Source of the DNA: Galbibacter mesophilus
GTDB lineage: Bacteria > Bacteroidota > Bacteroidia > Flavobacteriales > Flavobacteriaceae
Assembly: GCF_023721415.1 (NCBI RefSeq)
Contig: NZ_JAMQVC010000001.1
Location: 434,001-498,000, forward strand
Reading direction: 5' to 3'
Length of the DNA: 64,000 nucleotides
Made by a program: the position numbers and the translations under genes. The notes beneath the pieces are model-generated. The model saw nothing but the letters and a program-made list of their open reading frames with translations. It was not told where the DNA came from and made no database searches. Numbering within the stretch: the first letter of the stretch is position 1; each line of letters starts with the position of its first letter. Positions 21,151 through 23,042 of the stretch are shown one piece after another.

Positions 21151-21195
21151 TTAAATCAATGAAATCTAAAATCCTATTTTGTTAAATTTTAATAT

Positions 21196-21230
21196 CTGTA
21201 ATTTGTTATAACTTACAGTTGTGCGTAAGC
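21196..21230. repeat. Cassette boundary repeat, copy A (inverted relative to B and C)
   Basis: The sequence ends GTTGTGCGTAAGC (21218-21230), the near-perfect reverse complement of GCCTACGCACAAC at 22108-22120. The preceding CTGTAATTTGTTATAAC also aligns with the reverse complement of the B copy, so about 35 bp are related. Together A and B flank the DUF2726 gene as inverted repeats. Confidence 0.65.
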
Positions 21231-21250
21231 TGACCAAACCAAGAAACCGA

Positions 21251-22102
21251 ATGATTAATCAAGAAAATATATATCAGCTTTTACAAAAAGAAAATTGGAC
21301 TGAACTAATCGGAATATTCTACCAAAATAAGGATTTAATTAAAAAAGACCCACTACTTCAAACTGCATCGGATACTACTATTTCTGTTATGGTTCAAAAA
21401 GCAATGGAATTAGAGACTGATTCAGATTTTATTGAAAATTTAGGTCAACTGACTTTGTTGAATGCTGGACATTTTATAAAACTAAAACCTGAACAAGACG
21501 AAGCTATCAATGTCGCAATTGCAAATGCAAAAATTGACAACTTATCTCTTGCTTATAATTATGCCAAAAAATATCCCGACAATGAGGTTTCTAAAAGTAT
21601 AATTACTAAATACCATAAAGAGTTTCCGAAAGAAATTAGCAATAATTCTGAAAATCGAATTCTAACAACTGAAAACACACTTGACGAAAACGGAATTGAT
21701 GCTCGGAAATCAATGTTTAACTCTTATCAGGAAAGTGAGTTTTTTGTAGCCCTAAAAAGAGTTTTTGACACTTACCAAGTTTATCCAAATGTAGCTTTGA
21801 GCAATGTAATCGAATATGATTTAATTAAAGACCAACTAAATCAAACTGAACGGAATTTTTTTTTCAAATCGTCTATCGACTTTGCAGTTTTTGAGCCTTT
21901 CAAAAATTATTATCCAATTTATTTCTTCGAACTCGATAGTATTTACCATGACACAAAAGAGCAAAAAGAAAAGGATAAAATAAAAGACAAAATTTTTAGC
22001 CTCTCAAATTCAAAACTTTATCGGATTAGAAAACGTGATAAAACTGTTAGTGAAGCGGAATTTGAAGAAATAATACGAGAAATAAGAACATTAACAGAAT
22101 GA
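21251..22102 (+). CDS. DUF2726-domain protein, nuclease-like fold, cassette-borne
   Basis: A 283-residue protein, counted from the ATG at 21251; a GTG at 21221 would add ten residues but falls inside the boundary repeat, so ATG is preferred. The N-terminal part (1-155) is helical with no known domain. From about 160 on, ESEFFVALKRVF, YPNVALSNVI, SIDFAVFEPF (Asp210) and IYFFELDSIYHD (Glu227, Asp229) fit the DUF2726 pattern, a family related to restriction-endonuclease-like PD-(D/E)XK folds. No SF helicase or topoisomerase domain is fused, unlike many DUF2726 proteins. The gene is enclosed by inverted repeats (21196-21230 and 22108 on), suggesting it moves as a unit. A defence role is possible but only inferred. 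Confidence 0.7.
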   Translation: MINQENIYQLLQKENWTELIGIFYQNKDLIKKDPLLQTASDTTISVMVQKAMELETDSDFIENLGQLTLLNAGHFIKLKPEQDEAINVAIANAKIDNLSLAYNYAKKYPDNEVSKSIITKYHKEFPKEISNNSENRILTTENTLDENGIDARKSMFNSYQESEFFVALKRVFDTYQVYPNVALSNVIEYDLIKDQLNQTERNFFFKSSIDFAVFEPFKNYYPIYFFELDSIYHDTKEQKEKDKIKDKIFSLSNSKLYRIRKRDKTVSEAEFEEIIREIRTLTE

Positions 22103-22107
22103 AAAAA

Positions 22108-22236
22108 GCCTACGCACAACAATGGTAACCGCAGTTACGGCGGATTCGACTACGTCCGAATCCACTCGGAATTGCTAACTTCAGTGCTAAACCGAAAATT
22201 AACGCATATTAAACCGAAACTAACTGTTAAACAGAA
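22108..22236. repeat. Cassette boundary repeat, copy B (full unit with hairpins)
   Basis: Starts GCCTACGCACAACAATGG. It contains GTAAC/GTTAC around 22125-22137 and a perfect 7-bp hairpin GGATTCG (22142-22148) / CGAATCC (22157-22163). Its right part holds three near-direct repeats TAAACCGAAA at 22188, 22210 and (TAAACAGAA) 22228. The left half is shared with copy C and, inverted, with copy A. Confidence 0.7.
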
Positions 22237-22278
22237 CCATTTCAAACAATCAACCAAGCATTACATTTAAAAGAAAAA

Positions 22279-22593
22279 TTGAAAGAATTAGCAAAAGATA
22301 TTGTTGAGGAAATGAAAATCCGATTTGATTCGGACTTCGATACTGCAAATAAATTTTTGACGGAATATTTGACTAAATACGACTATTTGAATTCGGACAG
22401 AATTATTCGCTGTGTGATTTTTTTAGCTAATAATGGAATTGAAAGTTTTAAATCATTTTTAGAATCCGCAAAAAACGACCCAAGAGACGTAATTTGGTGG
22501 GCGGAATATGAAAATCGAGAATCTTTCGATAATAACAAAAGAGTTCGTGATTTCAACAAAACCTTTTCAGAAAATAAAACTGGAACGGCTTGA
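22279..22593 (+). CDS. Small hypothetical protein of a cassette-like element
   Basis: A 104-residue soluble protein starting at TTG (22279); no ATG or GTG gives a comparable frame. It is acidic to neutral, largely helical, with no signal peptide or membrane segment. The segment RCVIFLANNGIESFKSFLESAKNDPRDVIWWAEYENR looks like a folded helical domain. I do not recognise a family. It lies between repeat copies B and C, and its TGA overlaps the TTG of a broken small membrane-protein frame, so it may once have had a co-translated partner. Confidence 0.5.
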   Translation: MKELAKDIVEEMKIRFDSDFDTANKFLTEYLTKYDYLNSDRIIRCVIFLANNGIESFKSFLESAKNDPRDVIWWAEYENRESFDNNKRVRDFNKTFSENKTGTA

Positions 22594-22777
22594 ATTTTAA
22601 CCCATCTTATTTTAGAAAATTAGCCAAAATAGTTATCGTTGTTTCTATCGTGATTTTGTAATTTCCATCTTTTTATCAATTTGGAATTCTTTGAATATTT
22701 ATATTGGAATATACACTATGATTTGGGGAATAATTCCAGCTTCATTCCTCCAAATTGGAATTAAATTTTATGAGTAG
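22590..22777 (+). pseudogene. Remnant of a small two-helix membrane protein
   Basis: A TTG at 22590 overlaps the stop of the previous gene (TTGA) and opens a frame reading NFNPSYFRKLAKIVIVVSIVIL before TAA at 22659. In another frame 22661-22777 continues as hydrophobic ISIFLSIW...IYIGIYTMIWGIIPASF ending KFYE-stop. The join suggests a single small membrane protein disrupted by one indel near 22655-22661. Supported only by hydrophobicity and position. Confidence 0.35.
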
Positions 22778-22793
22778 AAAAATTAAAAATAAC

Positions 22794-22870
22794 TGCGCAC
22801 AAAAATATATAACTGCAATTACGACGTCCCGAAGCTTCGTGAGACTACGTCCGAATCCATGCGGAAATGA
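22794..22870. repeat. Cassette boundary repeat, copy C
   Basis: CTGCGCACAAAAATATATAA then CTGCAATTACGACG, followed by GACTACGTCCGAATCCA and CGGAA, align with copy B (22111-22170) in the same orientation. The left arm of the hairpin is replaced by CCCGAAGCTTCG, which is itself palindromic. Confidence 0.65.
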
Positions 22871-23042
22871 ACATGTAATATTTTAGGACGCAATTGTAAT
22901 GAACCACCTATTTTTAAAGTTCAATCTCTACTCAAACACAAAAAAGGAAACTTGATTTAGGAATAAAAACACATGAAAACTTCCCTCCTTCTTGTGTTTG
23001 GCATAATCTACCTTTATCTTTACAACTTCAAAAAATAAAGTC

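Follow-up and report, generated by a model that had tools for sequence, protein, structure and literature searches.

The nearest known kind of system to the locus described here is the integron. In the literature, the additional domain of IntI is given as a defining trait of integrons (PMC9668308), the I2 insert is said to be required for cassette capture and to occur in no other protein (PMC7790495), and extrahelical bases are presented as a strand landmark in IntI integrons (PMC7790495, PMC12901181). Bacteroidota are listed among the phyla with integrons in three papers (PMC9668308, PMC8618304, PMC2426708), and integrons have therefore already been reported from this phylum; the IntegronFinder 2.0 paper mentions Salinibacter as having a complete integron, Bacteroidetes having previously yielded In0 alone, and a Tenacibaculum genome paper reports no integron with IntegronFinder. 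No description of arrays such as those presented below was found in the literature searched, subscription journals and preprints lying outside this search.

The window, i.e. the whole stretch of 64,000 nt of the Galbibacter mesophilus genome analysed here, contains 1892 bp between the stop of a TPR gene (21150) and the start of mpl (23043), as read from the sequence and the ORF list. Between these two genes lies an island (21218 to about 22908) of two directly oriented cassettes, which is very probably an outpost of an integron-like system of Bacteroidota. Its features are as follows:

21151..22988, no strand: part lacking from the sister interval, with similarity to G005 again from 22989 on
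21218..22238, + strand: cassette 1 and its attC-like site (1021 bp), with 10-nt complementarity between the boxes at its two ends and a layout like that of the relatives' arrays
21218..21227, + strand: R' box, the start of cassette 1, GTTGTGCGTA, read from the sequence; copy A of the first-pass annotation
21251..22102, + strand: DUF2726 gene, 283 aa from the chosen ATG (ORF list, Pfam)
22111..22120, + strand: R'' box of cassette 1, TACGCACAAC, complement of GTTGTGCGTA
22121..22238, + strand: core of attC-like site B, 118 nt (own-genome copies, family matches)
22142..22163, no strand: inner hairpin of site B, GGATTCG (22142-22148) and CGAATCC (22157-22163) (sequence, folding)
22239..22908, + strand: cassette 2, its ends and its attC-like site C decayed (intact relatives in G141)
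22279..22593, + strand: 104-residue gene of cassette 2 (ORF list)
22794..22803, + strand: decayed R'' box of cassette 2, to be compared with TGTGTACAAC of G141
22804..22908, + strand: decayed attC-like site C, a diverged copy of B, right end estimated

The first-pass annotation, made from the letters alone, had seen a cassette-like island in which copy A and copy B formed inverted ends around the DUF2726 gene. Copy A is indeed the exact reverse complement of the R'' box of B (GTTGTGCGTA at 21218-21227 against TACGCACAAC at 22111-22120), yet it is the cassette's own start rather than an inverted copy of an end; the cassettes run in direct orientation and each closes with an attC-like site, and an element with inverted ends, be it a transposon or an island, is thereby ruled out. 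The perfect hairpin it had reported in B is present, while its three repeats are a generous count, because TAAACCGAAA occurs exactly twice (22188 and 22210) and the third copy, TAAACAGAA, carries a mismatch. The identity proposed for the gene of cassette 1 is borne out by Pfam (PF10881, 32.5 bits against a cut-off of 24.7); a longer ORF from a GTG at 21221 would give 293 aa, and the ATG at 21251 was chosen because cassette ORFs start at a median of 31 nt past the cassette start. The boundaries of cassette 1 are intact. Its right junction nevertheless reads ATT instead of GTT, which is why site B was missed by the strict scanner, and the L arms of this site (about 22124-22139 and 22214-22232) are partly decayed with respect to the consensus, both of which count against the explanation preferred here.

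Regarding cassette 2, copy C (from about 22794) is, as had been recognised, a relative of B, diverged and sharing GACTACGTCCGAATCCA with it; the two sites lie about 560 bp apart. In spacing the pair may be compared with a CALIN (two or more attC under 4 kb from each other and no integrase), but one site is decayed and neither is an attC of the IntI type. The 104-residue gene has no Pfam match at E<=0.01; at E<=1e-10 it is detected in 5 of 299 genomes of the family, its own included. No evidence emerged for the broken membrane partner that the first-pass annotation had placed with it. G141 carries the gene twice, each time in a cassette whose end boxes match, and one of these cassettes is preceded by an attI-like TATAACGA; since these boxes are intact, the copy in the window is a cassette with mutated ends. 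Loss of its 5' end by deletion, once considered, was dropped, as comparison with G141 indicates a start mutated in place.

An empty site in sister species had been anticipated, and it was found: the TPR stop and the mpl start are separated by about 83 bp in G005 (1892 bp in the window), by about 106 bp in G003 and by little in G006, the island being absent from all three. Several other relatives, in which no TPR gene was found beside mpl, were left out of this comparison because their interval is not comparable. For the window alone, it could still be argued that the two cassettes were not inserted in trans but are what remains of a larger local array that has since shrunk, as they form a tandem pair of which the second is decayed, and as this second cassette requires two insertions or a joint one. 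This reading is unlikely while deserving some weight, given that the three sisters have only a short gap and that there is no recombinase in the window, where the integron-integrase model has no match (on contig C1, all its matches lie outside), in agreement with the earlier statement that no integrase is nearby. Insertion of the cassettes in trans is thus preferred; a candidate enzyme is encoded on another contig of the same genome, from which the window cassettes would have been served, much as the first-pass annotation had supposed.

The repeats are real and beyond chance. Site B has four further copies in its own genome, at 85-89% identity and E of 1e-34 to 1e-36, and this type of site has matches at E<=1e-15 in 185 of 397 family genomes, those among the matches listed falling within positions 847-1021 of the query, at its B end; similar repeats beside unrelated small genes in other flavobacteria, which the earlier annotation had mentioned, do exist. 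Site B and its copies on contigs C4 and C2 start just past a stop codon. When the genes between neighbouring copies were listed, varied single-gene cassettes appeared in arrays of the same genome and of relatives, with one pattern on contigs C4, C2 and C3 as well as in the relatives: a GTTN7 start, an N7AAC end, then the site, whose length before the next GTT is mostly 115-121 or 176-186 nt. The 26 scanned loci provide 147 inter-site units; in 121 of these, start and end of one and the same unit complement each other over 8 nt or more (in 91 over exactly 10 nt), against 10 of 147 when a unit's end is set beside the start of its successor, and 2.2% for random pairs. This is the cassette logic of integrons, in which the two ends form the site of the circle. 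The longest ORF is forward in 132 of these units. The sites had no match in Rfam (3 sources), and a covariance model (R1) reached E<=0.01 in 23 of 99 genomes, with 51 candidates scored per genome, and had no match in the window; because of this insensitivity a dedicated scanner was adopted, which gave 2 matches over 1280 kb of simulated DNA and was silent at the 30 mpl loci serving as controls, both it and the 25-row alignment used below having been tuned on these arrays.

The inner arms of 42 non-redundant sites pair at 6 outer and 4 inner positions. Of these 10 pairs, 9 have changed on both sides in the 25-row alignment, where 97.2% of cells pair, in rows that were picked for good pairing and shorter length (33 of 42 passed, 31 remained after pruning, 25 were typed); the test was for this reason redone on all 42 sites, where 387 of 420 arm positions pair; 2000 shuffles, each with its own re-optimised register, never exceeded 298. 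An A.C mismatch stands beside the inner arm in 40 of 42 sites, a second follows the outer arm in 30 of 42, and a third closes the R box in 123 of 147 units. As A.C reads T.G on the other strand, where it is able to pair, the bottom strand should be the more stable one; in predicted folds of rebuilt circular sites it was so in 96 of 96, these being the sites with an own-end stem of at least 9 nt, and the choice of strand may be made through such wobble pairs. The top strand is also predicted to be stabler than simulated sequence (mean z of -3.8, 20 sequences for each site). Linear site B, folded alone as DNA, gives modest values (z of -1.74 for the top and -2.61 for the bottom strand). The arrays of locus L064 (G078) have GC-rich arms of the CCCGCC type with the pairing pattern kept, a strong case of natural arm covariation.

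Mobility is suggested by the comparison of genomes. One 609-bp cassette occurs in four identical copies in G005 and, at 86.9% identity end to end, in Winogradskyella ursingii. A second lone cassette lies near G000:C1:951.6 kb, with boxes matching over 10 nt; the corresponding locus, which only one of six same-genus genomes has, is empty in G002, to which homology resumes at the G of the resident GTT, though the left junction did not align, which counts against the preferred explanation. Recombination at sites of this kind is probable.

As for cargo, no Pfam family was seen in more than 2 of 122 cassette ORFs among the matches listed, which are the best 25 of 77 and the best 25 of 99 families. 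The names, which are those of the models, include restriction endonuclease EcoO109I, C-5 DNA methylase, erythromycin-esterase, beta-lactamase domains and superoxide dismutase, besides many DUFs and a guanylate-cyclase domain (2 ORFs; a Pycsar cyclase in PADLOC). Defence-type cargo, which the first-pass annotation had suggested, is matched by defence-protein models in some cassettes elsewhere; no defence function was assigned to either cassette gene of the window. A cassette of one of the genome's own arrays (L017:9486-11118) carries two overlapping genes, for a ParA-like ATPase and a RiboL-PSP-HEPN protein, which may form a toxin-antitoxin or defence pair.

The sites themselves also receive a passenger. 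The same 105 bp directly following the L' arm end two contigs of the genome (G000:C4:267254-267358 and G000:C2:1150276-1150380), and sequence like it is shared by 15 of 299 genomes of the family:

L231, L235 and L233: passenger element loci, 105 bp after the L' arm of attC-like sites

In G212 and G176 such sequence opens an element whose ORF was interpreted as an IS110-type transposase; the element occupies that very point in sites of differing sequence, with the junction visible in G257; from this ORF in two relatives, an insertion element seems to target the sites.

The candidate enzyme is a XerA-like tyrosine recombinase of 376 aa (G000:C4:262497-263624), its catalytic Tyr being residue 344; beyond its gene, cassettes continue on the same strand as far as the contig extends. 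It is the best match of the integron-integrase model in this genome, below the cut-off and in two stretches that skip model positions 182-236; the score is 210 bits, and 219 in G005, against 413-488 for seven IntI controls and a cut-off of 265. XerA-type proteins from outside the family score equally, so that the type of enzyme alone proves nothing. The I2 insert is missing in 28 of 28 aligned members, IntI4 residues 186-243 facing residues 271-285 of the query, and the structure model has no helix at the I2 position. The closest proteins in sequence and fold are XerA-type recombinases (PDB 5hxy, 4a8e). In addition, the recombinase bears an extra N-terminal domain of about 85 residues, on which Pfam gave nothing solid (DUF5710 weakly in 3 of 28) and whose profile had no credible match in PDB (best E 0.094); residues 1-83 might share a fold with structure-specific DNA-binding domains of the XPB damage-recognition or HARP kind, although HARP entries are absent from the structure lists, an absence that excludes nothing.

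It is improbable that the system is an ordinary integron whose IntI has secondarily lost I2 and whose sites are ordinary attC. The array logic, the predicted bottom-strand asymmetry and the similar site length would all suit such an origin, as would the extra base found in one arm of 17 of 42 sites when compared with extrahelical bases. In the tree, though, the recombinase family (28) and IntI (9) form separate, well-supported groups with XerA rows between them, GTTRRRY fits 8 of 147 cassette starts and RYYYAAC 7 of 147 ends, and no match above the IntI cut-off occurs in 299 family genomes. The function is integron-like, while two defining tests of integrons, I2 and the R boxes, failed; the system is therefore not filed as an integron.

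The recombinase is linked to arrays well beyond this genome. Homologs at E<=1e-60 are found in 45 of 99 genomes, its own included, and in 41 of 60 within the family of the window. Out of 20 stretches taken from relatives, 14 (12 genomes) span at least 3 kb downstream of the recombinase; all 14 have sites, with 126 downstream on the recombinase strand and none opposite in 228 kb scanned, the upstream side being covered over only 6 kb. A contig scan yielded at least 80 further loci, the best 43 being L106-L148. Sites were seen in 12 of the 19 of these, all Bacteroidota, that span at least 3 kb downstream (164 kb downstream and 175 kb upstream): 41 downstream, 1 upstream and 1 opposite. Among named organisms, at least one site is carried by Winogradskyella ursingii, Algibacter onchidii, Seonamhaeicola aphaedonensis, Flavobacterium aciduliphilum, Zunongwangia mangrovi, Algoriphagus ornithinivorans, Alkalitalea saponilacus, Aquiflexum sp. 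and Rufibacter sp. The remaining seven of the 19 loci (L121 of Mesonia aestuariivivens, L131, L141, L142, L145, L147 and L148) have no downstream site visible to the scanner, which counts against the preferred explanation. Among the other 37 loci, mostly outside Bacteroidota, a site was seen in two, in L165 of Pontibacter and, more than 9 kb from the recombinase, in L151 of Oceanirhabdus. In several draft relatives, e.g. L069-L074, the contig ends no more than about 2 kb past the recombinase; perhaps arrays break assemblies.

That another enzyme, such as the host XerC/XerD, moves the cassettes while the neighbouring recombinase is incidental would explain why lone cassettes and arrays (the window, C2, C3) can lie at a distance from the recombinase gene and why some Bacteroidota loci have the gene without visible sites; there is little chance of it, set against sites in all 14 relative loci with sufficient downstream sequence and a first cassette that, where placeable, often begins 21-180 nt past the recombinase stop. 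A candidate attI, with TATA at most 13 nt before the first GTT, is present in 15 of 23 stretches hand-picked from 35 rows (shuffled mean 3.1, at most 9). The XerA-like recombinase is the probable acting enzyme. Finally, a MITE- or REP-like family lying beside genes by chance, suggested by short, hairpin-bearing, multi-copy repeats, is hardly conceivable, being contradicted by the cassette-specific complementarity of gene start and repeat, by arrays of different genes and by the break of homology at GTT.

Phage records contain no recombinase homolog at E<=1e-40, whereas 63 plasmid records match at this threshold, 6 of them over most of the query. Among four of these plasmids, one of Chryseobacterium has the recombinase followed by two sites, one of Pontibacter carries two short sites (51-52 nt) and one of Rufibacter a single uncertain short site; on the Chryseobacterium oryzae plasmid no site was found. 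The short ones (L229 10558-12759 and L228 14408-14460, on the Pontibacter and Rufibacter plasmids) are seemingly of the same kind at 51-52 nt. IS110 transposases are annotated among the cassettes of these Cytophagia plasmids, and the Chryseobacterium plasmid has an annotated gene for a group II intron maturase (L227 14750-16066), a few kb further downstream than its cassette sites. One plasmid homolog is named 'site-specific tyrosine recombinase/integron integrase' at NCBI, an annotation that hints at kinship with integrons.

As for the mechanism, a cassette comprises one short gene and, after it, an attC-like site of about 118 nt. In the circular cassette, start and end would join into one long imperfect hairpin, built from the R box (10-12 bp), a spacer, the L box (6 + 4 bp) and inner hairpins. 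The recombinase, whose substrate would be folded single-stranded DNA, would bind the bottom strand and exchange strands at the GTT of an attI adjoining its own gene and, rarely, at other chromosomal GTT sites, such as the one in the TPR-mpl gap. More tentatively, and with the balance slightly against it, this may be a second, separately evolved class of integron, common in the family of the window and reaching other Bacteroidota, where a XerA-type recombinase captures genes through single strands without I2, reading the folded bottom strand by means of an added N-terminal structure-specific DNA-binding domain and of conserved G.T wobbles (A.C on the top strand), owing to which one strand alone folds well. 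If it does work without I2, the capture of genes through a folded strand evolved, or is able to operate, by another route, and the question of I2 would become testable with a sister enzyme.

The undescribed cassette system that the first-pass annotation had proposed is thus upheld in its core, with a different anatomy. As in integrons (IntI, attI and attC, including CALIN and lone cassettes at attG), single-gene cassettes stand in tandem in one direction, with the site at the 3' end of the gene, a cassette start complementary to its own site and a GTT junction; the bottom strand folds better, by prediction, and the recombinase heads the array. Unlike in integrons, the recombinase is XerA-like, without the IntI insert and with an extra N-terminal domain, and its gene shares the strand of the cassettes; the R box reads GTTN7/N7AAC instead of GTTRRRY/RYYYAAC, and the top strand has conserved A.C mismatches. 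From XerA-type recombinases (PDB 5hxy, 4a8e), this one differs by its extra domain of about 85 residues and its linkage to cassette arrays. IS110/IS1111-type elements prefer the attC of classical integrons; likewise, an element with an IS110-type ORF sits here at a fixed point of the sites, as their passenger and not as a mover of cassettes.
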